From: Limnoperna fortunei
Lineage: Eukaryota; Mollusca; Bivalvia; Mytilida; Modiolidae
NCBI GenBank assembly: GCA_944474755.1
Contig: OX104120.1
Location: 35,940,067-36,004,066, forward strand
DNA: 64,000 bases
Reading direction: 5' to 3'
Both the position numbers and the translations under genes were made by a program. The notes under the pieces are model-generated. The model had not been told where the DNA came from. It searched no databases and saw only the letters and a program-made list of their open reading frames with translations. Positions 1,122 through 62,692 of this stretch are shown one piece after another. Numbering within the stretch: the first letter of the stretch is position 1; each line of letters opens with the position of its first letter.

Positions 1122-4100
1122 AATGCTATAGTCTCCAACTGGTAAAGATGGAAATGTGAAAGTTCCATCATCTTTGGATGTCACATAACAGATTGCATCC
1201 TGATTGTTAGGGGAGACAAATCCTTTAGGTAAAGATTTCTCACAGTCAGTAACATCCTATGGTAAAGTTAGATAAAATTTGAATATAATTCAACAAAGAA
1301 TTTGCAGCAAACTATTACAGATAGATTATTGTTTGTTTCAGAGATGAAAAAATGATTCATCGACCCACTTGCAATGAGATAGCTTATGAGACCGAGGGGG
1401 AAAAACTTGCAGTAATCAGTTTATCACTGTTTTTTTTTTTAAATGTGATGTCACATCCTTAGAAACTGACTTAAATTATCCTTATCGTGCACGTATGCCA
1501 GCAAAGTGAGATGGAATTTTCTCAGATTACATGATAAAAGGAAAATTGAACATAATAAGGTTAATTCGTTATAATATGTGTATCATATTTTCTTCAGTAT
1601 AGGCCTATTTGAACTATATGTCTAATATTTGTTTGTTTATTTGAATGTTCTTTAATGCCACTTTCAGCAATTTTCCAGCTATATCATGGCATCTAGTTTT
1701 ATTGGGGAGGAAGCTGGAGTACCCTGAGAAAATCCCCAACCTTAGGTGGGAAAACAGGCAATCCTTGTCAATTGAGATTGGAGTCCAGTGCATCCTGCCT
1801 GCAGTGAGACTCGAAACCCGCAATCTCAGTGTTGGCAGACCTTGTGATTAATAGTAGTCCAACTACCTTAACCACTCGTCCACCGAGGCTTCTGTCTAAT
1901 ATTTATTAATGAATTATACTCAACTAATCCAACTTCATTTAATTGATCTTGAACCTATTTGATTTCTTGTGTATATGCTAATGTAAGTGGAAAAGTTGAC
2001 CTTATAAGCAACCAGAGGCTCTTAAGAGCCTGTATCGCTCACCTGATTTTATAGGAAATGAAGATGGCATTTCCCTGATTTTAAAGTTAGTCCTGTAATT
2101 TTCAATAAACTTTAATTAGGACCATCCAAACAATATTACTAGAAAGCTTTGTTTCATTGGTTAACCGGTTGTATAGAGAAGATTTTTTTTATTTGCCCAT
2201 AGGGTCCAATGTTAAACTAAGTCCTGCGGCGGTGGTGGCCATTTTGAATTTCCAATTGCCATAAAAAACATAAACTTTATAAAGGACCATCCAAACAATA
2301 TTGCTAGTAAGTTTTTGTTTCAATTGATTAACCGGTTTCAGAGAAGAAGCCTTTAAAAACTTTTTCCCATAGGGTCCAATGTTAAACTAAGTCCTGCGGT
2401 AGCGGCCATTTTGAATTTCCAATTGCCATAAAAAACATAAACTTTATAGAGGACCATCCAAACAATATTGCTAGTAAGTTTTTGTTTCCATTGATTAACC
2501 GGTTTCAGAGAAGAAGCCTTTAAAAACTTTTTCCCATAGGGTCCTATGTTAAACTAAGTCCTGCGGTAGCGGCCATTTTGAATTTCCAATTGCCATAAAA
2601 AATTTAAACTTTATAGAGGACCATCCAAACAATATTGCTAGTAAGTTTTGTTTTGATTGGTTAAACGGTTTCAGAGAAGAAGCCCTTTTAAACTTTTTTC
2701 TCATAGGGTTGAATGTTAAACCAAGTCCTGCGGTGACGGCCATTTTGAATTTCCGATTGGGATAAAAAAACATTAACTTTATAGAGGACCATCCAAACAA
2801 TATTGCTAGTAAGTTTTGTTTCCATTGGTTGACCGGTTTCAGAAAAGAAGCCTTTCAAACTTTTTCCCATAGGGTCCTATGTTAAATTAAGTCCTGCGGT
2901 GGCAGCCATTTTGAATTTCCAATTGCCATCAAAAACACAAACTTTATAGAGGACCATCTAAACAATATTGCTAGTAAGTTTTTGTTTCCATTGATTAACC
3001 GGTTTCAGAGAAGAAGCCTTTTAAAACTTTTTCCCATAGGGTTCTATGTTAAACTAAGTCCTGCGGTGGCGGCCATGTTGAATTTCCAATTCCCATCAAA
3101 AACACAAACTTTATAGAGGACCATCCAAACAATATTGCTAGTAAGTTTTGTTTTGATTGGTTAAACGGTTTCAGAGAAGAAGCCCTTTTAAACTTTTTTC
3201 CCATAGGGTCCTATGTTAAACTAAGTCTTGAGGTGGCGGCCATATTGGTTTACCAATCAAAATAAAAAACACAAACTTTGTAAAGGTCCATCCAATGAAC
3301 ATTATGGCCAAGTTTGGTTTCAATTGGCCAAGTGGTTTCAGAGAAGAAGATTAAAATGTAAAAAGTTTACAGACGCCGACGCCGACGACGACGACGACGA
3401 CGACGACGCCGACGGACGCAAAGTGATAACAATAGCTCACATGACCCTTTGGGTCAGGTGAGCTAAAAAAGGTCAGTATTATACACAACTGATAACAGCC
3501 AAATCTAAAAAGGTCAGTATTATACACAACTGATAACAGCCAAATCTTAACAACTCTGCAGGATTTCTAAGTATTTTACTCCAATTTATTCTCATTTTGA
3601 CAAATCATTGAACATCCCTGTTTTTTTTAAATTCTAAGACTTCAAAAAGGAAATTGTACTGAATTACTGTAAACAATCTGTGTATTTAAAAAATTCAATA
3701 ACGGTTCGATAATTTTTGCTTAATGGCCAGAAATAGATTTCAGATTTATTCCGAACGTGAACAACTTAAGAAACATCTTTTCAATTTAGGCTGAAGATAC
3801 ATTTTGTGTAAAATTAGTTTGGACAAAGTGAAAAAAAAAGAGTGGAAACAATTTAAAAATATTTTGTTAAGTATACAAAATATGTCACATATTACCTGTT
3901 TATTTACAACTTGGGAAAACAACACAAAATTAACTCCCTTTATGTTCTCTTTTTCACTTCGTACACTACCCTGAAATCATAATAAAATTTAATATCTTCT
4001 TGATAGATATATTTGAATGACACAAATACCATACATATTTATATACTTGTGTATATTTTTCATCAAAAAAAAAAGAAAAAAATTTGTGCTTTGAACTTCA

Positions 4101-7100
4101 AAAAAATTTTTTTTTTCATTTTCAGTAAGATTATTTACATTAAGTTTGTTACACAAAATACACTAAGGCAGATCATACTTCTCCCACTTGTCAACAGCCT
4201 ACAGTAGAAGTTGGCAGTATTAATGGTGTAGCTGTGTATTGACATTTGGGTCATTGCCAATACACCCTACTGGTAACAGTCTCCAAAACTTGGTATGCTT
4301 AAACAAATGTGTAAGCCTAGCAAAATTCTAAAAAATGTCATTTCCACTCCTATTTGTTATTAAATACAACAATTCACCAAGTAGGATAAATGATCTTAAA
4401 ACTTTGATTGTATTTGAATGCTTAGGTTAATCCAAACAATATATCAAATATATCATGATATGTACTGTGATACTCGTCTCTAGTGACCAGCCCACCAATG
4501 TCCACTCAACTTTTACATCTTATTTGTACAATAATGAGGATGCTTGTCTTCTTTTCCCAAGGATTATATGTGCAAATCTTATTATAAATAAAGATAATCA
4601 GCAAGTCCATTCCAAATGGCTGGAATAGCAGACAAGCTAAACGTTTTGTTCGTTTGAATGATGTTTAACACCACTTTCAGTAATTTTTCAGCTAAATCAT
4701 GGCATAAATTTTTTTTGGGGGAAGGAAGCCGGGGTACCAAAAGAAATCCCCGGATCTTTGGTAGGAAACCTGGCAATCCTTGTCAGTTAAGATTGGAGTA
4801 AGTACACCCTGTCCGCAGTGTAACTGGAACTCGCAACCTCAGTGTTGACAGACAATGTGATAAATGATAGAAGAACTACCTTAACTACTCAGTGACTGAG
4901 GCCCCCTGCTGAAGGTTTTACTACTCAGTGACTGAGGCCCCCTGCTGAAGGTTTTACTACTCAGTGACTGAGGCCCCCTGCTGAAGGTTTTACTACTCAG
5001 TGACTGAGGCCCCCTGCTGAAGGTTTTACTACTCAGTGACTGAGGCCCCCTGCTGAAGGTTTTACTACTCAGTGACTGAGGCCCCCTGCTGAAGGTTTTA
5101 CTACTCAGTGACTGAGGCCCCCTGCTGAAGGTTTTACTACTCAGTGACTGAGGCCCCCTGCTGAAGGTTTTACTACTCAGTGACTGAGGCCCCCTGCTGA
5201 AGGTTTTACTACTCAGTGACTGAGGCCCCCTGCTGAAGGTTTTACTACTCAGTGACTGAGGCCCCCTGCTGAAGGTTTTACTACTCAGTGACTGAGGCCC
5301 CCTGCTGAAGGTTTTACTACTCAGTGACTGAGGCCCCCTGCTGAAGGTTTTACTACTCAGTGACTGAGGCCCCCTGCTGAAGGTTTTACTACTCAGTGAC
5401 TGAGGCCCCCTGCTGAAGGTTTTACTACTCAGTGACTGAGGCCCCCTGCTGAAGGTTTTACTACTCAGCGACTGAGGCCCCCTGCTGAAGGTTTTACTAC
5501 TCAGCGACTGAGGCCCCCTGCTGAAGGTTTTACTACTCAGTGACTGAGGCCCCCTGCTGAAGGTTTTACTACTCAGTGACTGAGGCCCCCTGCTGAAGGT
5601 TTTACTACTCAGTGACTGAGGCCCCCTGCTGAAGGTTTTACTACTCAGTGACTGAGGCCCCCTGCTGAAGGTTTTACTACTCAGTGACTGAGGCCCCCTG
5701 CTGAAGGTTTTACTACTCAGTGACTGAGGCCCCCTGCTGAAGGTTTTACTACTCAGCACCTGAGGCGACCTGCTGAAGGTTTTACTACTCAGCAACTGAG
5801 GCGACCTGCTGAAGGTTTTACTACTCAGCGACTGAGGCCCCCTGCTGAAGGTTTTACTACTCAGCAACTGAGGCCCCCTGCTGAAGGGTTTACTACTCAG
5901 CGAATGAGGCCCCCTGCTGAAGGTTTTGCCTCTATTCAGTGAGGACATAAAGCACAACCATCTAAAATGAACTGCAGAATCAACCAGAGTTCAAAACACA
6001 ACAGAAGAACATACAAATAATTTACTCTAATACAATTTAATCCTTAATCTGATAGTTTTTACTCTTTCTTAAATATAATACATAATTTTGTTTAATTTCA
6101 AAATATCAGTTACTCATAGAATAAAACTTACATAATGAATATGTAAACAAGTACTTACAACAACTTGGTAGCCTGCAATGACTATGGAATTTCCTGCATC
6201 AGCATTATCAGAGGTCACGGTGACCTTGGTTTGGTGCTGCAAGGTTAATGTAGAATAAATGTTTAGTCAAAGGTGTTTATGTGACTTTTACAATTCTTCA
6301 AATTGGTATATACCAAAACTGATCAAATTAAATGTTCTTGAGCATACAATGTTAAGATCATTCCTATATCTTGGTCTTTTCCATGTTTATAATGTTATGC
6401 TCTTCTCTGTCATATAAATGTTTGAAAATAATGGAAAATCAGTCAGTTTCTTTGAATGACTATGATGGAACTAAATTTAACAAATTTTCTAATATATAAA
6501 AATACATTTATCATGTCATGATCAGTTAAAACCATGGATTATACTGGTGGCAATTATTTTCTTACTGGGATTTATAATATTCAACAGAATTATTTTTTAA
6601 AACATTTAAATACACATAAGGAAAATTGAAAATGGCTGGTGCTCAAAATAAATAAAACACACTAAATTGCAATACCTGTACAAGTCTGTATTTTGGTGAT
6701 GTAGTTGCTTTGATGTCATAATCACCAGGCATTACTTTGCCAAAAGCATAACTGCAAACATACAAATGAACATCTAAATTAAAACCTTAGAATAAAACAC
6801 AACAATCATTGTGCTTAAGATATATAACAGATGTTAACACATCAAAATAGGTTGAGTGGGAGATTTGTTCCAAAAAAATTTTTTTCAAAAGACACAATAG
6901 ATTTATATTATTTTATTTACGTGTTTTTATACAACACTTATTACATGTATTGGTCATTTTCAATGCTCAGTAGAGTAGTTAATAACACATCCAGTCAAAT
7001 TTATCAGTGGCTGGCCAACCAAAGTCAGCACTGAGGTGGAACAACTGATATTTTTAGCTTTCTATCAACCATTATCATGTCACATTGTTGTTTTTCAACA

Positions 7101-17700: not shown

Positions 17701-20700
17701 TGTTAAGTGGTCTGTACATCTATATCACTAAAAACATTTAGTCACCAAGATCACGATTTTTTTTACAGAAGTTCCGGTAATTCACTATATGAACTACTGG
17801 GCTTACAGAAAAGTGCAACTCATGATGAAATAAAAAAGGCTTACAGAAGAGTAAGTATAGACCTACACACAAATTTTGTTCTGTCTGACCAAATGTTGGG
17901 CAGAGATTTTCTACTTTCTGGAAGTTTGAGTCATTGTGAATTTTTGTTTAACAACTAATATAATATGGGTGGATGGTATCCACTGTACTGGGTACTAGCT
18001 TTATAGATTAAGTCTCTTTTAGCTGTAAATCCACTGCATCTATCCACATTAAAGGGATATACAGTTACTATAATATGTAGGGCAAAAATGTTATAGATAA
18101 TTATCTTTACATCCTTAAACACCAAACGTAGAAGCGCAGTGTAAACCTTTCTTGCATTTTTGGATACATTCTCTGAATATAGTTGATTCTGAATGGCCTC
18201 AATTTAAAAAATCTTTCCTACGAAACTAGAAAAAAATCACTATGTCCTAATTTAACTTGGCACATAAAAGTTGTGTGTGAGGTCCTCAGCAAAAAAACTT
18301 AATGGGCAATCATTGTTTCTAAAAAGGTTTTCAGAAACTGTACAAGGCGAATATTTGTAGACTTATATTGTTTATGGTATCAGTTTCACAAATTTCTCAT
18401 TTATGCCAGGGCTCGACAGTAACGTTTGTTCGATTGCCTGGGACAAGTGGAAATGTCCGTCAGACAAGTAAAACTCAGTACTCACTTGTCCGTCAGGACA
18501 AGTTAAAAAAATAAGCCTATAATGAAGTATCATAAAGAATTGAAGTATCTTTTCTCGAAAATGCGAGTTTGGTCAATAATTTTTCTGAATTTATTACCCA
18601 TTACATTTTGTCATTGCCGATAACATGTCAGCACATTTATGCAAATTACTTAGCACTGGGTCGAAACTACGTATGCATAGCCCTAACTACAAGCTGCAAT
18701 GGAACCAGTAATATACAGTTTATTAGTGATCAAGAAAAGGCTTGAAGGAACTGCGCTTGCCGATAATAGTTGTAAAACTAATTTGACATCAACACGCACA
18801 TGTTTCACGATGTCCAAGAAAAAAATCGTAACGTTAGCAAAGCATAATATGTATTGTTTTTAACCAAATCATTGAATCATACAAATTTTGGATGTTCTGG
18901 GTCACAATTTTCGGACAAGTGATGTTTTCATTCGGACAAGTAAATTTTGAAAGTTACTTGTCCGAAGGGACAAGTTTAAAGCAAAGTTATTGTTGAGCCC
19001 TGTATGCTAATTGGCTTTAGATATGACTGTCATTCAAAAATCTTTAATTACTTTACAGCTTGCATTGAAGTTTCACCCAGACAAAAATCTTGATGATCCA
19101 TCAAAAGCAGAAAAGGTAAGAATTACCATTTTGAAGGGGAGATAATGTATGAATTGGTCTTTTTTGGAGAATGTCTCTTGTAGGATTTATAAAAAAATGT
19201 TGTCATTGATATCAATGTTATACAATTTACTTTGCCACATGGGTGTTTCATCTCATCAGTGTTGTGTAAACCAAACAATATTTAATCCAAATAATCAAGA
19301 TGTTGTAGAGCTTTTGTCATCAAAATTCCTTGGTATTCTTCAAGCCATTTCCTTACGTAAAGTTACTCTTCTTTGTAATTGTTTTATTTATAATAGATAA
19401 GTAGATTTGTTACATAATATCAGATTTTTTCTTTGATCTTTTTATAGCTTAATCACACTTATTCTATGTATTGTGCAAACTCATTCTTTAATATAAGGGG
19501 GGCCTTGGTGGCCGAGTGGTCAAGGTAGTTCGTCTACTATTGATCACGTGGTCTGTCAACACTGAGATTGCGGGTTCGATTCTCACCTCGGGCAGGGTGT
19601 TATCAACTCCAATCTTAATTGACAAGGATTGCCAGTTTTCCTACCGCAGGTCGGGGTTTTTCTCCGGGTACTCCGGCTTCCTCCCCCAATAAAAACTGGA
19701 CGCCATGATATAGCTGAAAAATTGCTGAAATTGGCGTTAAACTCCATTAAACAAACAACAACTTTAATATAAGACATTTCTTGTTAAACCACTGTTGATA
19801 AAAAATCCCTAATCAAATACATTGAAGTATGCAGTGCTTAGCTATGGAATAATCAACCAACTTTTAAGTTATCCCATAGTGTAAGCACAGCCTCTTATTG
19901 TCATTCAAACTACTAAATGAACTGCATCGGTGCAAAGATAGTCCAGACCATCCGTCCAGCACATGATCATATGACAAGTATAATGTCTCATTCTTTTGAT
20001 TGAATTATGTTACAAAACATATATACCACACCTCACTCATTAATATTTAAACCACTATGTAATTAATGTAGCTAGTAATCTACAAAAAAACTGGATGCCA
20101 TGATATTGCTGAAATTGGCATTAAACAATATTCAAACAAACAAACAATTTATTACCCATGTGTCAATACTGATGATGTAAGTTTATGTCTGGCTGGTGAG
20201 GGTGTACTCGACTCTAATCTTAATTGACAAGGATTGCCAGTTTTCCTACCTAAGGTCGGGGGCTTCCTCCTCCAAAAAAAACTGGATGCCAGATATTGCT
20301 GAAATTGGCATTAAACAATATTCAAACAAACAAACAAACTATTTATTACCCATGTGTCAATACTGATGATGTAAGTTTGTGTCTTGCTGGTGAGGGTGTA
20401 CTAGACTCTAATCTTAATTGACAAGGATTGCCAGTTTTCCTACCCAAGGGGGGGGGGGGGGGGGGGCTTCCTCCTCCAAAAAAAAACTGGATGCCAGGAT
20501 ATTGCTGAAATTGGCATTAAACAATATTCAAACAAACAAACAAACAATTTATTACCCATGTGTCAATACTGATGATGTAAGTTTGTGTCTGGCTGGTGAG
20601 GGTGTACTTGACTCTAATCTTAATTGACATGATTGCCAGTTTTCCTACCCAAGGTCGGGGGCTTCCTCCTCATAAAAAAAACTGGATGCCAGGATATTGC

Positions 20701-26700: not shown

Positions 26701-29700
26701 GGTAAATGTTGGGCAGGCAGGCGGGCAGGGAAAAAATTTTCTTAACAGTTTTCTCAGCAACTACTAATCAGATTCTCTTGAAATTTGGTATGCATCAGCA
26801 TGGCCTCCAATAACGTGGGATTCGATTTCAGGTCTGTCGCTCACCTACTTCCTGTTAAACAACTTAGTTATTTTTTAACGAAATCCTGCCATTTCTGTGT
26901 TTGATCGATTTTATTTTATTCAGACAGCATATAAACCAATTTATCTTTTAAAAAATTACATACATGTACTATTACCAAAAATGGATTATAGGTAAGCTGA
27001 GGGCCACAAGGGAAACAGAAATATTTCTGTATGTTGTATTGAAGGATTGTAATACTTCATTAATCAGTGTTATATGTTAACAACCAGTACAAGTATTATT
27101 GGCAGAGAAGTCAGAATTACCTAGTGGATCCCCAAACCCCAGGGCAATGAAATAGAAAACTTGGTGACATCAGTTACTAAATTGAGCTGTACATACACGA
27201 TGCAGATGACCAATTGTTCAGTCCATTATGCTACCAATTCTCCTATCTTCCCACACATTAGTCCTACTTGATTTTACAATTATTTATGAGTTTCAGGATT
27301 AGGAGACTGTCTAAATTAAACCTACAACCCATGATCTTCACATTAAGTTCATTGTGCTACTGTTTATTCAGTTGAATATTTGAATATTTTTTATTTGCTG
27401 ACTTACTAGTATGGAGATCGTACACTTAATTTTCTACGAAGGTATGAATGACTGTACAGCAGAGACATGTCGGTTTTTTAAGCTAAGATCATTAAGCTGA
27501 GACTGGTACTTTGGCATAAGTTTCATCAAAATTTTAATTAATTGTTGTTGAATGTACATGATATATACACAATTGCTACATTACTAATTTTTTGCTATGT
27601 TTTTCAGTTTAAAGAAATAAGTCATGCTCATACAGTCCTGACAGATACAACTAGACGTCAGATCTACGATGAATATGGGTCAATGGGACTGTGGGCTGCA
27701 GACCAGTTTGGTGAAGAAAATGTTAATGTTTACTTGATGCTTACCAGTAAATGGTGCAAAGTAAGTATGTACTGAAAAACATCCTTCTTCCGTAAATGGC
27801 CGATTTCTGGTACAGATAACCCAGTACAGATGAGCTCGCGGGCACACATCTGTACTTGCTGCGTCATCAAATCAAAACACCAGAAACAAGAACGTTGTTG
27901 TTTGACATTCTTGATTCCGGCATTCTGATTGGATCTCAGAGACAATGGAGTCTACAACAATGGAGAGTCTACAGGATATAGCGATGCGAAAGTTATTGGT
28001 TTACGGAAGGAATAGGTACTTTCATGGGATTTTCGTGATAGAAATTTTTATGTCTTTTGGCTCGTTCCGCTGCACTCCACTCGCGAAAAGACTTAAAATT
28101 TATATCACTCGTGAAAGATCGACTGGTCTTTCCCAAAAAAGTATGAAAGAACCTATTATTCTGTTACATTATATTATTCTGCAGCCATTACCATCATGAA
28201 ATATTATGTAGATGTAAAATACATGGACACTGAATTACTTCATAGATATATTATGTAATATTAAATTTGTTTAAAAATCTTAAAGCTTGAAATTTATTTC
28301 ATTCTAACCTGATTTTAATTTTTGCCCAGGTTTCACAAAGTACTAACTTGGGTATAGTTTGGTGAAGTCAGGCAGCAGATAGGTGGACAGGTGGGGAAAT
28401 CAGAAGACTACCTATTTTGTGTAACGAACTCCTCCTACAATTTTCAACCCAGAAATCTGTGTGAAAGTGTGAACATTTATTGGTATTGAAGTTGTGCAGT
28501 TGCTAATAGGCTGCTTTGATGCTTCAAGGATTTTTTTTTCAAATTTTTATACTCCTGTCGAAGACATTTTGAATTATGGGAACATCCATGGTGGGCGGGA
28601 TGGCGGCGTCCACAGCGATGTCCGCTCTCCCACTCAAACAGTTGTTGACAGATTTTCATGAAACTTTGTGGGAAAATATTTATGGGCATAATATGTATGC
28701 CAAGTTTGATTACAAGCCAAATCACTTCAGCCACTTCAGAGTTATGGCACTTTATACAAAAAATGGAAAATTCCCATTGTCTGCTTTCCAACTAAAACAG
28801 TTGTCCAATCTTCATGAAACTTGCAGAAAATGTTTATGGGCATAATATCTCAACCAAGATTGATAACCAACCAAATTGCTGCAGCAACTTCAGAGTTATA
28901 GCCCTTTATTTATAAGAAAATGACAAATAAGCGTTTGTCCGATCTCTAACTCAAACAGTCCAATCTTCATGAAACTTGGGGAATATTTTTATTGGCATAA
29001 TAACTTGGCCAAGTTTGATAACCAGCCAAATCACTTCTGCCACTTCAGAGTTATGGCCCTTTATTTATAAACAATGGCAAATCTTTTCCACTTTCTAACT
29101 CAAACAGTTGTTTTCCAATCTTCATGAAACTTGTGGAAAATGTTTACTGGCATAATATCTCGACCAAGATTGATAAGCAGCCCATTTGCTTTAGTTCTTT
29201 AGAGTTATGGACTTAATTATACAAAAAATGGCAAATGTTTGACTGGCTTATTTTGTAGCACTTCAAAATTGGGAACATTTGCCAAAGACAGTACCTATTT
29301 TTTGTAATCAACTCCTCCAGTTTTCCACCCAGATCTCTAAATCTTCACAGAAAGATTTCAAATGTATTAAAGTTGTGTGCACCCATTATAGCATTGTTTG
29401 AGGATTTTTTCCTTATTTTCCAGCCTTAGGAACTTATTCATTGGCCAGGTTGCAATGATTGATAAGATAGGATGTTTACTTTACGACTAGCGAGAAGTTT
29501 TTCAGTTATATTCAGGATGAGAACAAGTTTAGCAAACAATAAATCAATTCAGAAAAAATGGACCAAAGGACACAAATTTTGAAGGCCACTGGAAAAGTTT
29601 GGAGTATGGGTTGTGGGAAATTTAGCCTTTGTAGCCCATACAAGGTGCTTACTCTTATTGACATATACTAACAGGGTCAGCGGACAGGCTTTTAGTATTG

Positions 29701-31361
29701 GGATCCAACAACCCCCAACGAGAAAGCATTCCCTGTCTGCTACCTGGGGACGGGCTGGGTAGCTCTGTGGGTCAAGCACCATGATCTCTCACAGTATATT
29801 GTCCCAGCCAAGTTGCAAGAAGTGCAAGGTATTTGTTAAGGTATATTCACCTGTTGTTGGTTTATTTCAGGCATTGTTTATTTGTTGCGGTATTTTCACC
29901 TATTGTTTGTATATTTCAGGCATTGTTTATTTGTTGTGGCATATTTACCTGTTGTTCGTTTATTTCAGGCATTGTTTATTTGTTGTATATTTACCTGTTG
30001 TTGGTTTATTTCAGGCATTGTTTATTTGATTAGGTATATTTACCTGTTGTTTGTTTATTTCAGGCATTGTTTATTTGTTTAGGTATATTTACCTGTTGTT
30101 GGTTTATTTCAGGCATTGTTTATTTGTTGTATATTTACCTGTTGTTGGTTTATTTCAGGCATTGTTTATTTGTTGTATATTTACCTGTTGTTGGTTTATT
30201 TCAGGCATTGTTTATTTGTTGTATATTTACCTGTTGTTGGTTTATTTCAGGCATTGTTTATTTGTTGTATATTTACCTGTTGTTCGTTTATTTCAGGCAT
30301 TGTTTATTTGTTAAGGTATATTCACCCATTGTTGGTTTATTTCAGGCATTGTTTATTTGTTGCAGTATTTTTACCTATTGTTTGTATATTTCAGGCATTG
30401 TTTATTTGTTGCGGTATCTTTACCTGTTGTTATTGTTGCCTGTGCTGCTGCTGCTGTTGTGGAAAATGTCGACCTGCCCATCCAGAGGAGGATTACTCCA
30501 ATCTACATGTAAGTATTACTTGTTTTATGACCCAAATATAAGTTGTGTCAGTTCAGTCTTTTGTTTTTTGTTTATTTGTTTGAATGATGTCTAATGCCAG
30601 TTTCTTCAATTTTTCAGTAATATCATGGCGTGAAGTTTTTAATGGGGGGGGGGGGGGGTACCCAGAGAAATCTTCCTGTCCTTTGGTAGGAAAACTGTCA
30701 ATCCATGTCAATTAAGTTTAGAGCCGAGTACACACTGCCCCCAGTGAGATTCGAACCCACTAACTCAGTGTTGACAGACCACATGATCAAAAGTAGAGGA
30801 ACTACCTTAACCACTCGGCCACAGAGGCCCCTAGATCTGAAAAAATTTGTGATCTTTGTGATAAGGAAGAACTTGGTGATGTGTTCTAAAAAAATCTAAC
30901 TTTAAATACATGTGCTAGTATTTGTCCATGATCAGCAGTTTAGTTCAAAATTTTCTGCTTTCTTGGGCCAATAAATTTAACTTGTCAGTCTTTTTTTTGT
31001 CATATGGTGCCATTGTAAAAGTTTTATTTCTTACTGTTTTGTAATTTCTATTATCAATTATATATATTTTTACATATACTGTAAGGTTGATTTTTTAACT
31101 ATTAATAGTCTGACGTCTTTAAAAAAAGAGATACCAAAATTATATTATTTTATTGATGTATTGCAGGATGAATTCAGTACATCTCCAGAAGATTCCCCAG
31201 TCACCTCACAGCCCCAGGGGGGTGCCATACCAGTCCCACCTGCTGGGGATAATTTTACAGAATCCACTACACTAAAACCAGAAGCTAAAAAATATGGTGC
31301 TGGAGACGAGTCGCCAAAAGTCAATGAGAAAATAGCAGAAAATGGAATTAGAGAAAGTTAA
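14718..31361 (+). CDS. DNAJC5: DnaJ homolog subfamily C member 5 (cysteine string protein), complete
   Basis: CSP is a palmitoylated J-domain co-chaperone of synaptic and secretory vesicles that works with Hsc70 and SGT to keep SNAP-25-type SNAREs folded. Coding exons are 14718-14740, 17769-17850, 19059-19115, 27608-27760, 30395-30508 and 31167-31361, giving 207 aa (human 198). The J domain spans about residues 13-80 with HPD at 41-43, in KFHPDKN. The linker has [18 protein letters not shown], as in the family. The cysteine string covers residues 110-130 with 13 Cys. The acidic, Ser/Pro-rich tail ends in GIRES. The N-terminus [11 protein letters not shown] parallels the short Arg/Ser-rich N-terminus of human CSP, which carries a PKA site at Ser10. 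The 23-nt first exon is chosen because its phase 2 matches exon 2 and a GTAAGT donor follows. Oddity: the acceptor of the cysteine-string exon is the last of twelve tandem copies. Confidence 0.93.
15138..15295 (+). mobile_element. SINE head fragment, 3'-truncated
   Basis: GTCTCGGTGGCAGAGTG (A box), GCGGGTTCGATCCCG (B box) and ATTGACATCGATTGCCAG from the body are present; the tail is absent. It lies in DNAJC5 intron 1. Confidence 0.7.
16061..17100. mobile_element. ~1.04-kb element with ~32-bp terminal inverted repeats
   Basis: The left end ACACTACAGCCAAAATGG (continuing ATTACGCCAAGTCC) matches the reverse complement of the right end, ACACTGCGGCCAAGATGG (continuing ATTCCGCAAAGTCC). Subterminal copies of GCGGACA and TCCGCGAACG occur on both sides. 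No transposase frame is seen. Flanks TTAATT and ATATTAA do not give a clear target-site duplication. It lies in DNAJC5 intron 1 and contains repeat copy B. Confidence 0.6.
16365..16870 (+). repeat. Diverged repeat, copy B (partner at 12060-13015)
   Basis: Collinear words with copy A are listed there. It lies inside the inverted-repeat element 16061-17100, so it may be that element's interior, with copy A a relic that lost its ends. Confidence 0.5.
17409..17543 (+). mobile_element. SINE 3' half fragment
   Basis: CAGTTTTCCTATTGAAG, TTCTGGGGCTTTCTCGGGGT, CTGGATGCCTTGATATAG and AATATTCAAACAGACAA follow the order of the SINE body and tail. The fragment ends about 225 bp before DNAJC5 exon 2. Confidence 0.7.
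18407..19002. mobile_element. hAT-like MITE with 5-bp target duplication
   Basis: The left end CAGGGCTCGACAGTAAC pairs with the right end GTTATTGTTGAGCCCTG. TATGC flanks both ends (18402-18406 and 19003-19007). Inside, several copies of CGGACAAGT and ACTTGTCCG add inverted structure. CAGGG ends with a 5-bp duplication fit the 5-bp-TSD branch of hAT elements. No transposase frame is seen. It ends 56 bp before DNAJC5 exon 3. Confidence 0.7.
19496..19762 (+). mobile_element. tRNA-derived SINE, best full-length plus copy
   Basis: Head GGCCTTGGTGGCCGAGTGG (A box) and GCGGGTTCGATTCTCACC (B box). Body TTGACAAGGATTGCCAGTTT, TCTCCGGGTACTCCGGCTTC and CCATGATATAGCTGAAAA. Tail ATTAAACAAACAAC. It serves as the reference for the other copies here and lies in DNAJC5 intron 3. 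Confidence 0.88.
20086..21430 (+). repeat. Tandem array of a SINE 3' half (about 7 units of 187-214 bp)
   Basis: Each unit carries the SINE body (GATTGCCAGTTTTCCTACC), a variable G run with GCTTCCTCCTCC, ACTGGATGCCAGGATATTGC, the (CAAA)n tail, and a non-SINE stretch with TTTATTACCCATGTGTC and TACTGATGATGTAAG. The last word recurs at about 20168, 20362, 20568, 20764, 20965, 21153 and 21367. No unit has the tRNA head. G runs reach about 17 nt (20450-20466). Confidence 0.92.
21600..21920. repeat. Three diverged ~110-bp tandem units
   Basis: Each unit has TAGCATTTATT, AAAA.ATNTGTGT, ATAGAATTA and CCCTTAACNTCTG followed by AGAAACA. Units start near 21612, 21717 and 21832. They lie in DNAJC5 intron 3. 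Confidence 0.6.
22970..23192. repeat. Two-copy 111-bp tandem duplication
   Basis: ATCATGTTAAACATTTTATA at 22970 recurs as ATCACGTTAAACATTTTATA at 23081, and both units end in GTCGATCTTATGAAGCCCC. Just upstream, 22900-22940 has four tandem ACCCAAAC words. Confidence 0.8.
23234..23391. mobile_element. Palindromic foldback repeat (~158 bp)
   Basis: ATAATTCATGGCTGCCCAAT continuing to ATATGGGTAGGCATTAT at the left is matched by the reverse complement of ATGCCTTCCCATATTTAA to AGCAGCCATGAATTAT at the right. Arms of about 50 bp flank a loop of about 50 bp. It is probably a small foldback MITE. Confidence 0.65.
24150..24265. repeat. Two-copy ~61-bp tandem duplication
   Basis: TGTAATGACTTAGTATCTCG, CTAGACGTCTTC and GTTAGTATTACC occur twice in a row with a few substitutions. 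They lie in DNAJC5 intron 3. Confidence 0.7.
24448..24745. mobile_element. hAT-like MITE (CAAGGTTCATAC ends)
   Basis: The left end is CAAGGTTCATACAGGTCATG and the right end GGGGTATGAACCATG. Inside, CTGGAAAAGTCATGGAATT occurs twice. The flanks (GCCAAATG and CAAGTGGA) do not match, so no target duplication survives. No ORF. Confidence 0.5.
24771..24970 (+). mobile_element. CTTCCGTAAA-type MITE, copy 1, right end lost
   Basis: CTTCCGTAAATGG, GTACAGATGATCCAGTACAG, CACATCTGTACTTGCTGCGT, ATTGGATGTCAGAGACAATG and ATAGCGATGTGAAAGT match 27787-28009 in order. The terminal TTTACGGAAG is absent. Confidence 0.65.
26172..26320 (+). mobile_element. Second tRNA-derived SINE-like element with (ATT)n tail
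   Basis: GCGGATTTGGCCGAGGGGTC (A-box region), a long variable-arm-like stretch and GTGTGAGTTCGAATCTCGC (B box / T arm) resemble a Leu/Ser tRNA. The middle is too long for a tRNA and the 3' end runs into ATT repeats (26288-26312). It differs from the main SINE. A tRNA pseudogene is the alternative. Confidence 0.55.
27787..28158 (+). mobile_element. Composite MITE, copy 2: two abutting inverted-repeat modules
   Basis: Module 1 (27787-28009) runs from CTTCCGTAAA to TTTACGGAAG, with an inner hairpin formed by GTACAGAT and ATCTGTAC. Module 2 (about 28010-28158) follows at once, from AATAGGTACTTTCATG to ATGAAAGAACCTATT. Both modules recur together at 34496-34872. The element starts 26 bp after the donor of the DNAJC5 exon ending at 27760. 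Confidence 0.7.
28560..29300. repeat. Four ~155-bp tandem units of a dispersed element
   Basis: Units share AACAGTTGT, ATCTTCATGAAACTT, TGGGCATAATAT, AAGTTTGATAACCAGCCAAA, CACTTCAGAGTTATGGCCC and TTTATA. The left part has GGGCGGGATGGCGGCGTCC. The layout parallels the pearl-like elements, but their end motifs are not recognised here. Flanking sequence to 28320 and 29420 may belong to it. Confidence 0.65.
29837..30394 (+). repeat. Tandem array of DNAJC5 3' splice sites (46/49-bp units)
   Basis: TTTATTTCAG (or TATATTTCAG) followed by GCATTGTTTATTTG recurs with exon-like starts at 29871, 29920, 29969, 30015, 30064, 30113, 30159, 30205, 30251, 30297, 30346 and 30395. The last is the true start of the cysteine-string exon. 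Each unit thus joins a pyrimidine-rich acceptor to codons for ALFIC. Spacing is 49 or 46 bp, so phase shifts by one at each step. From 30113 and 30251 the phase matches the real exon and stays open into it. From 29969 an in-frame TAG occurs at 30080-30082. Confidence 0.95.
30395..30508 (+). CDS. DNAJC5: DNAJC5 cysteine-string exon
   Basis: This 114-nt, phase-0 exon encodes [20 protein letters not shown] and on to [16 protein letters not shown]. It has 13 Cys, which in the family are palmitoylated and fix CSP to vesicles. It begins after ATATTTCAG, the last of the acceptor copies, and ends at CAT with donor GTAAGT. Confidence 0.92.
30570..30831 (-). mobile_element. tRNA-derived SINE, full-length copy
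   Basis: On the minus strand: GGGGCCTCTGTGGCCGAGTG (A box), GTGGGTTCGAATCTCACTGG (B box), body with a C run (G run on plus at 30645-30658) and CAAATAAACAAA tail. It starts 61 bp after the cysteine-string exon donor. Confidence 0.82.
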
Positions 31362-31586
31362 CCAAAGAAGAACCTAGTAAATTCATTATTTGTTATACCT
31401 TGATGCTTCGCATGTAAACTCACATGTCTATATCAGGGTAATTTATCTTTTACCTATAATACTTAGTATATTATTATAATTTAGCATTTTATTATTGTAT
31501 TGTTGGGTTCCAGTGCATCTACGTAAGAATGAAAAGGATTAGATACAGATTTTTAACATTTTTGCACTAATTTTTGTCAAATTTCA

Positions 31587-46000: not shown

Positions 46001-49000
46001 TTTAACCATGTTCAGAAATTGAGACAGGAGGTAATTGAATTAAATATTGATGACACATGTATAAAAAATGTAAAACCCACTATGTTGTTTGTTTATACTT
46101 TGAAATGTTCTAAATTTGCTTTTATGTATAGGATCATAATAAGTACTTTGGCTTGTAGGGACATTTTCTGACAATAAATTCTACACCAACTTACCATTTT
46201 CATCAGATGCATCACCAAAAACTCTTATTGGCATACATGTCGGGATAGGAGATGGCGGTATCAATGTAACGTTCTGATCAGCATGGAATGTTATGTTGTT
46301 CAAAACACCTTTAAAAAAAATTATCAACAAATTATCATATGTTATACATGTATAAGCATTTTATAGTGTAAAAATTATCTTTCTAATGTATTTCTTGTTA
46401 AAAATATATAAAGTGTTGCATTCATTTGTATCTGAAGAAGAGTCATAGAGACACTAAATTTTAAAAATTCTATCATAAAAAAATACATTTTTTACTAGTT
46501 TTTTATAATACAAAACATAATTATGATTTACCATTTTACTTAAGAATTGATGAAAATGTACTCTGTCAATGCTTTCATACATCAATGAAACTTCAAAATA
46601 ATGCATTCAATTCTTATATTTACATTTTATTTCATTAAAAAAATGTCAGGGTCTTGATTGAAATTGTGCACAATGTATTTTTGTTGATTTAAATTGCTTG
46701 GCGTTGTTTGTTTACTGTGGACATTGTCAAGGAAGCATGAGCTCTTCATGGTTACCGGTTTCATTGAGAAATGCAAAGAATGATTCTACCTCATCTGTAA
46801 CGGTTTGAAACCAGAGGCTCTTAAGAGCCTGTATCGCTCACCTGATTTTATAGGCAAGGAAGATGGCATTTCCCTGATGTTAAAGTAAGTCCTGTAATTT
46901 TCAATAAACTTTAAATAGGACCATCCAAACAATATTACTAGAAAGCTTTGTTTCATTGGTTAACCAGTTGTATAGAGAAGATTTTTTTTATTTGCCCATA
47001 GGGTCCTATGTTAAACTAAGTCCTGCAGCGGAGGTGGCCATTTTGAATTTCCAATTGCCATAAAAAACATAAACTTTATAAAGGACCATCCAAACAATAT
47101 TGCTAGTAAGTTTTTGTTTCCATTGATTAACCGGTTTCAGAGAAGAAGCCTTTAAAAACTTTTTCCCATAGGGTCGTATGTTAAACTAAGTCCTGCGGTA
47201 GGGGCCATTTTGAATTTCCAATTGCCATAAAAAACATAAACTTTATAGAGGACCATCCAAACAATATTGCTAGTAAGTTTTTGTTTCCATTGATTAACCG
47301 GTTTCAGAGAAGAAGCCTTTAAAAACTTTTTCCCATAGGGTCCTATGTTAAACTAAGTCCTGCGGTAGCGGCCATTTTGAATTACCAATTGCCATAAAAA
47401 ACATAAACTTTATAGAGGACCATCTAAACAATATTGCTAGTAAGTTTTGTTTTGATTGGTTAAACGGTTTCAGAGAAGAAGCCCTTTTAAACTTTTTTCT
47501 CATAGGGTTGAATGTTAAACCAAGTCCTGCGGTGGCGGCCATTTTGAATTTCCGATTGGGATAAAAAACATTAACTTTATAGAGGACCATCCAAACAATA
47601 TTGCTAGTAAGTTTTGTTTCCATTGGTTGGCCGGTTTCAGAAAAGAAGCCTTTCAAACTTTTTCCCATAGGGTCCTATGTTAAATTAAGTCCTGCGGTGG
47701 CGGCCATTTTGAATTTCCAATTCCCATCTAAAACACAAACTTTATAGAGGACCATCCAAACAATATTGCTAGTAAGTTTTGTTTTGATTGGTTAAACGGT
47801 TTCAGAGAAGAAGCCCTTTTTAACTTTTTTCCCATAGGGTCCTATGTTAAACTAAGTCTTGAGGTGGCGGCCATATTGGTTTACCAATCAAAATAAAAAA
47901 CACAAACTTTGTAAAGGTCCATCCAATGAACATTATGGCCAAGTTTGGTTTCAATTGGCCAAGTGGTTTCAGAGAAGAAGATTAAAATGTAAAAAGTTTA
48001 CAGACGCCGACGACGACGACGACGACGACGCCGACGGACGCAAAGTGATAACAATAGCTCACATGACCCTTTGGGTCAGGTGAGCTAAAAATAGAAATCT
48101 AGGATATCGATGAAAGACATACGTAATGTAAATATAATACATTAAAATAAATTTCTATTACATTTATAGCTAACAGCTAATTGTTTTCAGATGTTTACAA
48201 ACAAACAGGAAGTAACAGTATAAATTTTAAAAGAAGATATTTCTGAACCCAACATTTTGCACAAGAAGAAATCAATTTGGAATACATAAAGCTTGAGATT
48301 AAATAAACATACAAAATCAGTTAGTATACTACACTAGAAATAAAGAGGCTATAGTATAATTTAGTTTACAAAATACAATATTTTTCAAGCAAATTGGACA
48401 TAAAAAAAAATTACAATTGAAATTTAAAGCTAGTAAACAGAATCTACTAAACCAAGATCAGTGCAGTACAGTACTAGTATCTTGTTCATTACCAATTCAT
48501 GTCACTCATGTTCTTCTAAAATAAATCTTAAACCCTTTTAAGGTAACTGACTCATAATTGAAGTTACTGTTTAAATTATTTTTAAACCAAGACAAGTGTG
48601 GACACAGAAAAACGTCTCGCCTGCATTCCGCATCAGTAACGAAAATAAATTTTGTCATAAGCATTACGTAAATAGCATTAAATATCAGCAGCGGCCTGTA
48701 TACGAAATATTGTCACCATACCATGCATAGTTACAGGGGAACAGCCGTAACCCAAAAACTTTAAAGTAGTCGCTGGACCGTGAAATTGAGGTCAAGGTCA
48801 GGTGGAACCTACCAGACAGTCATGTACTATTCATCAGCAACCTATATGCCAAATATTGTCATCCTACTATGCGTAGTTACAGAGGAACTATCGTAACCCA
48901 AACACTTTAACGTAGTCGCTGGACCGTGAAATTGAGGTCAAGGTCAGGTGACACCTACCAGACAGTCATGTACTAGTCATCAGCAACCTATACACCAAAT

Positions 49001-52000
49001 ATTGTCATCCTACCATGCGTAGTTACAGAGGAACTGTCGTAACCCAAAAACTTTAACGTAGTCGCTGGACCGTAAAATTGAGGTCAAGGTCAGGTGACAG
49101 GTGACTGACTGGCAAGTACTCATCATAAGCTACCTCTGGACCAAATTTGATGGACCTAGGGCTTGGGCTTACAAATATATGAAGCAAGATGTCAAGTGTT
49201 TACGCCGCCGCCGGATTCCCATACATATGTCTCGCCTCCAGCAACTTTCGTCGCAGGCGAGACAAAAAACAGCTTTATTAAATCAATGTATTGCTCATTA
49301 ATGATACAATTAAATATGTTTTAATTTGAGTCAATGTTAACAATTTTGAGTAGAAAAAATTAGTTAATCAAATAGTATTTTGGATGTTTGTTAAACATTA
49401 CCGAGGTCTGCTCCATTAAAAATCAATGGACGTCCGAGACAACAGCTATGAATATAAGGTCAATTGTGGTCTGGATACCTTAAATTGGCAGAAAAAGTCT
49501 GTTTTCTTACCAAAAAATGGGGTATTTGGCAAGATAAGGTCATCTTCTAGTATCCAAATTCTTTATAAGAAGAAGGTACATGTACTTAATATACATTATA
49601 TTTTCTGTCTTATAGTCTTACAATTTAGACAATTGTTTCAACATTTAGCATTTTACAGAATGGAGCAAATAAAAGTTTTGTTTTATTAGAAAGAAAATTA
49701 AGAATTAACAATTTCACAAACAATACAAGTTTTATTTCTGCACTGGTTTTGGCTTCAGAGAATTTCTAATTTACACATGCATAATGTACTGGAATTTACC
49801 CTCATCCACATAGAAAGCTGTAAAACAAAAATATTATCAATAGTTCACATGTTTTGGCTCAAACATAAACTAATGACTTTAAATGCTCGTATCTAATTTG
49901 TACGTAACTGCATTGTGACATGTACATGTGTTATCTGTAATGTTATCATTATCCTTTTATCCAAGACAACTTTTTTCAATAAATTAGCATATTTATGGTA
50001 GTCATAATTCTTATTTTATGTTAGGAAGTCTATGAACCTGAATAATTCATATCAAAGTTTTACATTTAGTAATAATTTTAAGGATGTTGAGGTTGTCCAA
50101 ACAGATGTTCATATTCCCAAAAGTTCCTTTTTCAACAACTCTTGGTTACAATTTTTTCTGGGTAACAAATTACATCAATTCTTTATTCAACCAGTTCTTT
50201 AGTCATCAGGACATCAGTGGACAAATTCTATCTAGTCATATCATAAACCTAAATAGGTATTTGCTACCTGCAGTGTAATAAGGATCCATTAGCAAAGTCC
50301 TTTAAATGAAGGTCACTTGACATGGGTATATATGCATTATAGACAGCCAGTGACTTGCCAGCTTAAACTGGTCTGGTCTGCAGACAGCCAGTGACGTGCC
50401 AGCTTAAACTCATCTGGTCTGCAGATAGTCAGTGACTTGCCATTTTAAACCGGTCTGCTGCAGACAGCCAGTGACTTGCCAGCTTAAACTGGTCTGCATA
50501 AGCTACTTCAGCACTTACAAATATGCTTAAACTAATTAAAATGCCAATGAATCATACACTACCATTATTTCAGAACAGACAATAAAGTTACAAAGATGTA
50601 TTTACCTGATGGTGTACTAATAGCTCTGTTGCTTCTCAGAGTTCTCGGTGGGGTGGCCTTATCTGTAATGTCATCTGCAAACTGAAATGGAAATTAACAA
50701 TCAGTCCAGCAAGTATATCTCCTGTTGTCTTTTCAAATTAAATTTGTGTCCATTCCTTTTACTCGTGTATCTATCCACCAATCCATATTATAATTACAAT
50801 ATCAGTAAAAAAAAGTTTAATTTTGTAAAGCTTTCTGACAGAACTAAACAGTTGAATAGAACAATATATTTATCACATTCATTTTGCAGACATCTAACCA
50901 AATTTCCCAAAGATTTTGAACATTTTTTATGATCAAAAACTTGTATGCAGTAACTGAACAAGGAAAATCTGTGAGCTAATGCTCATTAGTGATACCCCTG
51001 CTTTCACAAAAAGTATTCAGTAAACACGAAGGATGACCAAGGAGCATTAAATTACTATACACCATATGGTACTATAACAGGATAAAGCAATGTGCAAAAT
51101 ATTAGGCTTCTGCATCCTATAGTTGCTTAGAAAATGGCGACAGCAATTTTTGTTATGGACGAACCGACGAACGAATGAAAGGGTAAAACGAAGCCGGAGT
51201 ATATAGATTTACTTTATTGAATGGCGAGGCTCTAATAACAACTGTGCTTCCTATTCGAGGTTGTTTTGTGTAAATGTTACATTGATGCCTTTTATAAATA
51301 TGATACGAACACACCTATTTCAACAGCTTTATTTGTCTCTAAATTTGTTTCAATGATTCCTCCAACAAATAAAACTGCCAGCTAAAACTGGCTGTTAAAC
51401 CAATGAAACATAGCCATCACATTGCTAAAACTGGCTGTTAAACCAATGAAACATTGTCATCACATAGCTAAAACTGGCTGTTAAACCAATGAAACATTGC
51501 CATCACATAGCTAAAACTGGCTGTTAAACCAATGAAACATTGCCATCACATAGCTAAAACTGGCTGTTAAACCAATGAAACATTGCCATCACATAGCTAA
51601 AACTGGACACGTGTTAAACCAATGAAACATTGTCATCACATAGCTAAAACTGGCTGTTAAACCAATGAAACATTGCCATCACATTGCTAAAACTGGCTGT
51701 TATACCAATGAAACATTGCCATCACATACCTAAAACTGGCTGTTAAACCAATGAAACATTGTCATCACATAGCTAAAACTTGCTGTTAAACCGATGAAAC
51801 ATTGTCATCACATAGCTAAAACTGGCTGTTAAACCAATGAAACATTGCCATCACATAGCTAAAACTGGACACGTGTTAAACCAATGAAACATTGTCATCA
51901 CATACCTAAAACTGGCTGTTAAACCAATGAAACATTGCCATCACATTGCTAAAACTGGCTGTTAAACCAATGAAACATTGCCATCACATAGCTAAAACTG

Positions 52001-55000
52001 GCTGTTAAACTAATGAAACATTGCCATCACATAGCTAAAACTTGCTGTTAAACCAATGAAACATTGCCATCACATAGCTAAAACTGGACATGTGTTAAAC
52101 CAATGAAACATTGTCATCACATAGCTAAAACTGGCTGTTAAACCAATGAAACATTGCCATCACATAGCTAAAACTGGCTGTTAAACTAATGAAACATTGC
52201 CATCACATAGCTAAAACTTGCTGTTAAACCAATGAAACATTGTCATCACATAGCTAAAACTGGCTGTTAAACCAATGAAACATTGCCATCACATAGCTAA
52301 AACTGGCTGTTAAACCAATGAAACATTGCCATCACATAGCTAAAACTGGACACATGTTAAACCAATGAAACATTGCCATCACATAGCTAAAACTGGACAC
52401 GTGTTAAACCAATGAAACATTGTCATCACATAGCTAAAACTGGACACGTGTTAAACCAATGAAACATTGTCATCACATAGCTAAAACTGGACACGTGTTA
52501 AACCAATGAAACATTGCCATCATATATTGTTGTTTGAATGGTGTTTAACGCCTCTTTCAGAAATTTTTCAGCTATATCTAGGCATCCAGTTTCATTGGGA
52601 TAGGAAGCCGGAGTACTTGGAGTAAATTGCCATTTTATAGCTTAACATGGTGTAAAACTTCAATAAACCACCAAATTTCTTCTGCAGTATTTACAATAAG
52701 TAATAATGTTGTTCTTTACAAATACACAGATGTTCTGGCTCAGAGAACAATTGTGAAGGCAAGCACTGCCTACTTGATGAAGCACCTGATTGTTATATAG
52801 TTCAAGTTACTGGTTTTTTTACTTTTTATGGGGGGGGGGGGGTCTTCTTGATGTCACGTGTCTTTGTCTCCATCCAAATTTAGTCATTTTCCTTTCATTT
52901 TCTATTCTTGTTGATAGACCAATTTTCTTACATATTTCATTTTGAATTTACAACTTACTTACCCTGACACCTAATTGGGGACTCTCATCCTCTTCTTCAT
53001 TGTCACCTTGCTTTTTATTCTTCAAAACAGATTTTCTCCTTATTGTAGATGGTGCTTTCTTCAATGAGGGAGAATTGAATGTTTGAGGTTCTGTAGGTGG
53101 TGGAGATTTTGATGATTCTGTCTCATCTGTGGACTTTGACAGACTTTCATGGAGTTTTTGAGCTTTCTCAAAAGCTTTCCTAGCAGAATTAAGGATTGCT
53201 AATGTAGAAAGCGATTCCCTGTAAGTGTAAACTGTTAGTAGAATTACAGTGAAAAGGAACAGGTGCTTGAATGAAGTCAAATTTCAAATACTGCAAAATA
53301 ATGAATAACTGTGGGATTGTGTAATTTTTTGTAGGATTTTGTTGCTATGGTACATTTGTAACTCAATCTCTGACTCTCATATCTGAATGAATATGTCTTA
53401 ATTCTTAGTGTCTAAAGAAAAAATTATTCTTGATTAAGCTGGATCATGAAAATACCAAAGAATATAATGACATGTACTTCAAAATTATCAAACACCTGTT
53501 TTGACAAAGGTCTAGTGCAGTACTTAAAACCAATATAATCCCAAAATGTTGACTCAGCGAAGTCAGGCTTCAGGTAACAATATTATAAATGATATTCCCC
53601 CCGTCAAAGGGAGACTGGAAATTATGACCTCGTTAATAACAAAATTAAAGTGACAATTGTGAAATGAGTAAATAACAAACAAAAAACATAATTTAACAAC
53701 GTATGATAAATGTAATTTATAACAATTGCAAAGATGAAGATATAAATATGTACAGTGTGCAAGCACAAAAAAAAAGATTACAACTATCCACTTACACAAT
53801 ATACATGAATATATATACATATATGTAGCAAAGAATCCATAGTTCTCATCCTTAATATAGCTAAAATACTGCTGAAGAAATCAATCAATCAAACCACAGA
53901 ACTACTGATAGTTTGTACATACAGTCAAACCTGTCTTAAGCCACCTTTGAAGGGAAATTGTAAACAAGGTCACATAAGACAAGGGGTCTTTATACAGAGG
54001 TCATGATGTTTGTATACCAGTCAACACAGTCATGTTGTCAGCTTGTGAAAGAGTGACTTGTAGAACTGTTTTGTTTGTTTTCTTAAGTAAACATTAGTAA
54101 AATATAACATTTAATATATGTTATAACGAAAGTACAACAGATACAACAGTTATGAGCGTTTTGATTTCCTATTGTATTAACGCATGTCAACTTTATTCCC
54201 CCTTCAGTTTTTGTAATTTTCTTTGTACCAGTTTTACTGATTTCCTTGTGTTTTAACAATTCGCTCAATGCACAAATTGAAAGTTGGTTTTTAGAACCAG
54301 TGTACACCGGTTAGTATTGATTATAGTCATTTGTAAAAACAAAATGCCGTGAACATAAACACGACGTTTTGAGAAACATCATTTCCAACACGAATGGCAA
54401 CTAAAATGGAATAACAACACAGAGGGTCCGCCACACTAACGACTATTCAAATTTACAAGGCAATCCGAACTTCGATAAAATTCATTTTGATTGCTTTAAA
54501 CTTTAGTTTAACGTTTCGAAGAAGCTTGATCAATGACGATGGTCTACGAATCCTCTTTTTCGTCAGATTGGTTTTATTTATTGTTTAAGGACTTTAACAG
54601 TCTCAATAGTCGTTTTCGACAGTTTTCTCGGTCAAAAACAAACTGACAACATGATCCTTAGTCGCGTAAGGCAGGGAGTCGTTATATAGAGGTGAAATAA
54701 ATGGGAAAATGCTGGGGAGGAATAAATACGGTCGCATAACACAGGAAGTCGTTATATGGAGGGAGTCGCTAAGACAGGTTTGACTATGTAAAAGGTGACA
54801 GTCTATTCCTGAATTTATAATTTCTATGAGATTTAATTTTAGAGTACTTAAACTATTATTCTTAATGCATGTTATGTTAGAAAAGAGCAGGTTTGATTGT
54901 TTCATTCAATAAAATTTCTCATCCCACCACAAAACATAGATATATCTTTTCTAAATTTGTCAGTACGTAATACATGTCTTGAAAAATATACTAATAGTGA

Positions 55001-61370: not shown

Positions 61371-61699
61371 GTTGCCCCCTCGTTTTTACTGACTTCTCCC
61401 GAAGGAGAGGAACAGTTTTTCTTGTTCCCCTTCCTTCAATACCAGTGGGAGAAAGTTTTACCCTTTTCTACATCAGTGGGAATAGATCACCACAGATGTT
61501 TGGGCACTGTCAGTAATTCGGGGGTATTGGTTCTAGTGTTTCTGGAACTTCTTTCTTTGTCAGCAAGTCAGATTCCTATGTTTCGGACTTAAGACAAGGA
61601 GAAATTCCTTCTTCTGTTAGAAGAAGTTCAGACTCTATTACTGTAAGGAGTAATAGAAGAACTTCCTTCTTATCAGTTGACTCCAGGTTTTTTATTCTC

Positions 61700-62205: not shown

Positions 62206-62507
62206 CCTCCAGAGGAAAAGTTTTGTCTCTGTGTCAGAGAATTCAGATGACCACAACTGTTTGTCAGTTACTGTTCGACAGTTCTCCCAACTTCTGGGAT
62301 TTCTGAATTCTCTGGCCGATGTGGTCCCCTTGGAAAATCTTCACATTTGGCCTCTCCTTTCTCCAAGAACACTGGGAAGCAACCTCGGAAGATTGGGAAG
62401 CAGCAGTCCCTATTCTTCCAGTGGTATTTTCTCACCCAGATTGGTAGATTCACAGGTATTATGTTTTAAAGGGAGTTGAATTGGCTCAACCAATATCCTC
62501 CTTAACC

Positions 62508-62648
62508 CTGTACACAGATGCTTCTCTCCTAGGTTGGGAAGCCTTTCTAGAAGGGAGGTAAATTCCAGGAGTGTGGTCACTTGCTCACCAGCAGGAACAC
62601 ATAAATCTCCTAGAGATGAGAGCAGTTCTGTTAGCACTTCAGTCTTAC

Positions 62649-62692
<44 letters not shown>

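Follow-up and report, generated by a model that had tools for sequence, protein, structure and literature searches.

A minisatellite-like array of intron-exon boundary copies ahead of the cysteine-string exon of DNAJC5 in Limnoperna fortunei

We analysed a stretch of 64,000 nucleotides (nt) from the bivalve Limnoperna fortunei (assembly GCA_944474755.1, contig OX104120.1, positions 35,940,067 to 36,004,066 of the forward strand), here called the window, which carries a gene for the cysteine string protein DNAJC5. The intron in front of the exon that encodes the cysteine string ends in a tandem array of near-identical acceptors (3' splice sites), eleven of them in addition to the true one. Our preferred explanation, to which we assign a probability of about three in four, is that this array is a minisatellite of the 'mirage' type described in amphioxus, formed by duplication of the intron-exon boundary and tolerated, with splicing directed to the acceptor next to the exon. 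Most likely it does not act as a switch but is a by-product that the gene tolerates.

Results

TRF delimited a tandem array of 46/49-bp units at 29830..30431 on the plus strand (12.6 copies, ~49 bp, 90% matches). The original prediction had placed the array at 29837..30508; its end falls inside that span, and its start lies 7 bp before it. In each unit, about 12 nt of intron end (TTTATTTCAG type) are followed by the opening 34-37 nt of the cysteine-string exon; the 5' edge carries a partial unit, and the final copy is the real start of the exon. The eleven extra acceptors, given by their first exon-like base, lie at 29871, 29920, 29969, 30015, 30064, 30113, 30159, 30205, 30251, 30297 and 30346, and the twelfth is the true exon start at 30395; all twelve are near-identical at TTTCAG/GCATT (/ marks the boundary). 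The steps between them are, in order, 49, 49, 46, 49, 49, 46, 46, 46, 46, 49 and 49 bp. Since every step is 1 modulo 3, the phase rotates by one step per unit. The acceptor coordinates, steps and phases of the original prediction all proved exact on recount. The adjacent units 30113, 30159 and 30205, together with unit 29969, are identical 46-mers.

The array occupies a single locus. The 22-mer TATTTCAGGCATTGTTTATTTG had 12 matches in the window, all of them exact with up to three mismatches allowed, compared with none in 100 shuffles, and at no more than one mismatch the same 12 sites were the sole matches in the genome assembly searched (1.335 Gb, 285 contigs). There were no exact matches to the 22-mer in viral contigs. 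Two weak matches to the array in the same genome (L014 and L015) were rejected because they lie in other T-rich tandem repeats, and twelve candidate relatives in a contig database were also set aside, all being titled bacterial and matching only the first 21-34 query residues.

The splice signals are kept throughout the array. The AG is present in 12 of 12 copies, and a branch-point-like motif, yTnAy, albeit a loose one, lies at -22 in all of them. For comparison, about 96% of predicted branch points in human introns lie within -15 to -55, with a peak at -24 (PMC2991248). We aligned the 5' edge block of the array (the partial unit, unit 29871 and the first 37 nt of unit 29920) with the 3' edge block (unit 30297, unit 30346 and the first 37 nt of the exon). 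In this alignment 120 of 127 bases were equal, with one gap column, compared with 13-15 mismatches and 6 gap columns in four of seven register-shifted controls, and 8-9 mismatches and 12-18 gap columns in the other three. Because the edge blocks match better than the shifted controls, it is probable that an array of three acceptors came first, that this three-unit block (two extra acceptors and the exon start) was then duplicated whole, and that the middle expanded afterwards. A divergence of 5.5% between the edge blocks points to an array that did not arise very recently and to toleration of its acceptors.

These features are those of the amphioxus mirages, which were described at BflGb6, BflGb9 and Adh3 as minisatellite-like tandem duplications of an intron-exon boundary (PMC3087553). 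The DNAJC5 array is a minisatellite-like tandem repeat, its unit lies over an intron-exon boundary with the authentic boundary at one end, as in BflGb6 (intron 3' end and 5' part of exon 2), and its splice signals are kept, as the AG/GT signals are in many mirage copies. Homogenised middle units and diverged edge units are likewise shared, and the unit length of 46/49 bp falls inside the 10-72 bp stated for Adh3. The animal and the gene are different, however, the units are shorter than the 150-160 bp of BflGb6, and the copy number is higher, 12 at DNAJC5 and 35 at a RAD54-like gene described below versus 6 and 3 units in BflGb6. A further difference is that both the AG and the branch-point-like motif are found in every DNAJC5 copy. 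In amphioxus, reverse transcription PCR (RT-PCR) suggests normal splicing despite the arrays, and allelic length variation is reported (PMC3087553); these two properties are reported for amphioxus, and the DNAJC5 array resembles the mirages in its structural features. The original prediction considered a repeat of this kind unusual, a view weakened by the published mirages and by three more genes (four loci) with such arrays in the same genome.

The assignment of the host gene to DNAJC5, made in the original prediction, was borne out by a match to PDB 2ctw (DNAJC5, E=1.5e-37) and by the J domain (PF00226, E=4.6e-26). The gene lies on the plus strand, and its coding exons were placed by tblastn and splice sites: 17769..17850 (start of the J domain, ...KKAYRR; acceptor CAG/A, donor GTAAGT), 19059..19115 (HPD motif, HPDKN), 27608..27760 (the exon preceding the array, ending in phase 0 at the donor AAA/GTAAGT), 30395..30508 (the cysteine-string exon, donor CAT/GTAAGT) and, by splice sites, the last coding exon 31167..31361 (...GIRES, TAA). 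The frame read from 30395 contains 13 Cys after the linker (tblastn E=5e-15). The intron that has the array as its 3' end spans 27761..30394 when counted to the last acceptor. We did not find the exon that carries the start codon. A genome search with the protein of exon 27608-27760 gave one match (three candidates scored), and this protein search thus revealed no second DNAJC5 copy or haplotig for comparison of copy number. A spliced retrocopy was not found either, the 26-base junction of exon 27608-27760 to GCATTG having no match within three mismatches in the genome. The intron after the cysteine-string exon contains a SINE-like (short interspersed nuclear element-like), tRNA-related element at 30557-30850, with an Rfam tRNA match at 30736-30828 on the minus strand. 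A genome search with 30432-31400 was swamped by this element (8552 first-look candidates, of which 40 were scored) and was uninformative about exons.

We then read each acceptor through to the coding sequence downstream. In phase 0, 30395 gives the normal protein, 30251 and 30113 are open and add 48 and 94 amino acids, respectively (the longer extension being 30113..30394), and 29969 meets a TAG at 30080, all as originally predicted. In phase 1, the frame from 30346, 30205 or 30064 runs on to a TGA lying across the last coding junction, and that from 29920 stops early. In phase 2 all four acceptors hit stops. Thus, the claim that the remaining acceptors would shift the frame was right in that all of them are out of phase, although 30064, 30205 and 30346 still read openly as far as the TGA. 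In total, five of the 11 upstream acceptors are open to the exon end, two of them in phase. The phase-1 reading (30346..30508) would turn the Cys string into a Leu-rich segment, an exchange that is a by-product of the TGC repeats when they are read out of phase. A stop across the last coding junction would allow the transcript to escape nonsense-mediated decay, provided that there is no further intron downstream.

The open readings suggest an alternative in which the array is a splice-choice module: 30251 and 30113 would give long isoforms with 48 or 94 additional hydrophobic residues, and the phase-1 acceptors would give a tail-anchor-like, Leu-rich segment in place of the Cys string that escapes decay. 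The two in-phase and three phase-1 readings, the branch-point-like motif in every copy and an invariant block of 22 nt, considered below, speak for this explanation. We nevertheless regard it as improbable, since the openness follows largely from the copying of one 46-mer that is stop-free in every frame, as are 3.6% of its mononucleotide shuffles, since no avoidance of stops is seen, and since none of the 57 upstream starts in the sister arrays described below is open. Over all three frames, the array units contain just four stop codons, TGA 30027, TAG 30031, TAG 30080 and TAA 30312. In the two unit types, 31/138 and 29/147 single substitutions (20-22%) create stops, and with no fewer than 14 substitutions among the units, the four stops present are about the number expected by chance; this comparison, of low power, gives no sign of stop avoidance. 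We found no indication of a reading frame kept open by selection at the DNAJC5 array.

Acceptors and donors were scored by matrices in a crude model that gives a rough ranking only. The true acceptor 30395 scored 3.01, the eleven others 3.01-5.10, and three other DNAJC5 acceptors 1.41-1.91. Outside the array, acceptor-like sites that score no lower than the weakest array site have a density of 2.59 per kb; the same intron has five upstream, with scores of up to 6.46. Among ten other arrays of the window that were checked, six hold at least one acceptor-like site, and in the 167-bp repeat (2105-3349) there are 8 on the plus strand and 6 on the minus strand. Because good scores are frequent elsewhere, a good score alone proves nothing, and we did not take the strength of a site to show that it is used. 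It is unlikely that array acceptors pair with array donors to form micro-exons, the best donor in the array scoring 0.8 versus 2.35-6.53 for four true donors of the gene. RNA structure was also rejected as the means by which an acceptor is chosen: the array RNA folds less well than shuffled versions of itself, all 20 of which fold at least as well (z +3.26).

In the genome we searched for three TTTCAGG cores 25-55 nt apart, with the reversed motif as a control. The pattern gave 2200 forward and 1583 reverse matches, compared with 1952 and 3026 for the control; TTTCAGG arrays are thus no commoner than control arrays, which gives no reason to think that arrays of acceptors are favoured. Eight arrays, chosen by the acceptor motif among the first matches listed and all on contig C1, were examined, and four of them abut coding exons in the same way as the DNAJC5 array, a proportion that is not a rate for arrays generally because the sample was picked by motif and two of the four loci are paralogs. 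For the other four (L062, L065, L066 and L067) no adjoining exon was demonstrated, and L067 extends to the end of the examined stretch.

The largest sister array belongs to a RAD54-like gene (L061, C1:12498500-12506500, minus strand, array 2770-4418; PDB 1z3i, E 3.8e-58) and consists of 47-bp units, in which 34 exon-like starts precede that of the 48-nt Walker-A exon GLGKTLQCITLMWTLL itself. The AG is intact in 34 of its 35 starts (33 of the 34 upstream), and yTnAy was found at -45 to -15 in none of the 35. The array of RB1CC1 (FIP200) has 15 acceptors before the 59-nt exon RHFLQTLFTGLESFSSSFA (L060, C1:5226000-5234000, minus strand). The exons neighbouring it match PDB 8soi (E 1.8e-47), and a Pfam match to ATG17_like (E 9.4e-9) is below the curated cut-off; the array exon itself was assigned by order, open frame and donor, its own alignment being weak (score -2.8). 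Two CCM2-like paralogs about 140 kb apart (L063, C1:5447000-5454500, and L064, C1:5587000-5594500; PF16545, E 2.2e-10, for L063, the only one scanned) carry 6 and 5 acceptors, respectively. They are identical at 1233 of 1256 aligned bases (98.2%), with 47 gap columns, and share the boundary array. The branch-point-like motif is present in 15/15 copies at RB1CC1 and in 6/6 and 5/5 at the CCM2-like genes. Upstream sites score at least as high as the true site in 11/11 cases at DNAJC5, 13/14 at RB1CC1, 19/34 at the RAD54-like gene, and 1/5 and 2/4 at the CCM2-like genes.

The phase was set by the neighbouring exon in RAD54-like and by the sole open frame of the true exon in RB1CC1 and the CCM2-like genes. 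In that phase no upstream start is open through the exon: 0/34 in RAD54-like, 0/14 in RB1CC1, and 0/5 and 0/4 in the CCM2-like genes. The arrays at these genes are therefore not coding modules, and heavy use of their upstream sites would wreck the genes. The same observation favours another explanation, unproductive splicing, in which upstream acceptors would send transcripts to nonsense-mediated decay and so tune the level of DNAJC5. By our count, six of the 11 upstream DNAJC5 acceptors lead to a stop that lies 197-482 nt ahead of the last coding junction, among them 29920 and all four phase-2 acceptors. No pointer to regulation turned up, however, though no search for regulatory elements was made, and the RNA folds less well than its shuffled versions. 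The CCM2-like paralogs differ in acceptor number, 6 versus 5, at 98.2% identity, a turnover that suits drift better than a tuned switch. We consider control by unproductive splicing as improbable as the splice-choice module.

Several observations weigh against a tolerated array in which the exon-proximal acceptor is used. By the crude model above, 30395 shares the lowest score among the twelve acceptors, so that its choice is left unexplained by site strength. Unlike the four sister loci, DNAJC5 has upstream acceptors that are open to the exon end. At least 14 substitutions, in 11 variable columns, separate the 11 units, and yet none falls in a stretch of 22 nt over the acceptor and the start of the exon, which is the same in every copy (post-hoc P ~0.009, or 0.04 when clustered changes are treated as one event). 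This could mean constraint on the acceptors and is suggestive only. None of the seven mismatches between the edge blocks falls inside this stretch (P 0.03), a result that is not independent of the unit comparison. We did not accept selection on the acceptor block, because the RAD54-like array varies there: 13 of its 34 units have ACAG in place of TCAG at the end, and one has lost the AG.

An artefact of assembly, by which the copy number or the array itself would be wrong, is very improbable. The identical 46-mers mean that the exact number of units could be off. Against an artefact, the window is without N and lies in a contig of 78.5 Mb, variants that distinguish the units follow a higher-order pattern, and four other loci show the same architecture.

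The window contains further repeats. A 36-bp repeat of 29 copies at 4884-5927 lies within an open frame of 369 amino acids on the minus strand (repeating FSRGPQSLSSKT) and could be a coding minisatellite. The 167-bp tandem repeat occurs twice, at 2105-3349 and 46904-47983, and a similar unit of the same length is present at 5959-6336 of L061. A 43-bp tandem repeat of 26 copies lies at 51380-52526. The G+C content is 0.41-0.43 at 60001-64000, compared with 0.27-0.37 in the other 2-kb steps except 4001-6000 (0.44). Four open frames of 119-139 amino acids at 60001-64000 had no Pfam match, and the region is possibly a decayed mobile element.

Discussion

Of the three options offered by the original prediction, namely a splice-choice module, nonsense-mediated control and neutral expansion, the last fits best and the other two are little supported. 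We propose that a segment of about the last 12 intron bases and the first 37 exon bases was tandemly duplicated. The T-rich exon start, in which Cys, Phe and Leu codons abound, would read as a branch point and pyrimidine tract when it stands before a copied TTTATTTCAG. With the exon start serving in this way, each duplication could rebuild a whole acceptor, presumably without harm. Most likely, the bulk of transcripts is spliced to 30395 and the spliceosome passes over the other acceptors; if six of the 11 upstream sites were occasionally used, nonsense-mediated decay would remove the products.

A broader functional explanation accepts that boundary minisatellites are recurrent in this genome and proposes that at some genes the tandem acceptors are functional, either as a landing pad that raises recognition of the 3' splice site by sheer number or, at DNAJC5, as a splice dial that trades the palmitoylated Cys string for longer or Leu-rich anchors. 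The invariant 22-nt block, together with the open readings in phases 0 and 1, still allows for such a role, which we think unlikely.

The tolerated boundary minisatellite that we favour can be set beside other known systems. Short tandem acceptors such as NAGNAG also present competing 3' splice sites, with one branch point serving AGs that are a few bases apart. At DNAJC5 several competing sites likewise precede one exon; unlike in NAGNAG, every AG comes with a branch-point-like motif and tract of its own, and the sites are 46-49 nt apart and extend over 524 nt. Intron gain through tandem genomic duplication (PMC4974935) is similar in that a tandem duplication over splice signals is the source of new gene structure, but the DNAJC5 array has created no new intron, and the donors within it are weak. 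The human variant DNAJC5 C124_C133dup (cited in PMC9031920) is also a tandem duplication that affects the cysteine-string exon. It is an in-frame duplication inside the exon, by which the protein is altered, whereas the duplicates described here belong to the intron, given the boundary that we take to be used.

In a limited search of the open-licence literature, we found this structure in print for amphioxus only, and it is here carried to another animal. Gene callers may select wrong acceptors at loci with boundary arrays. With 5-35 near-identical, apparently usable 3' splice sites per exon, such arrays are natural experiments on how an acceptor is chosen when strength cannot decide, and the steps between their acceptors let one RT-PCR reveal each choice. 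A wrong choice at the DNAJC5, RAD54-like, RB1CC1 or CCM2-like arrays should cost the animal.

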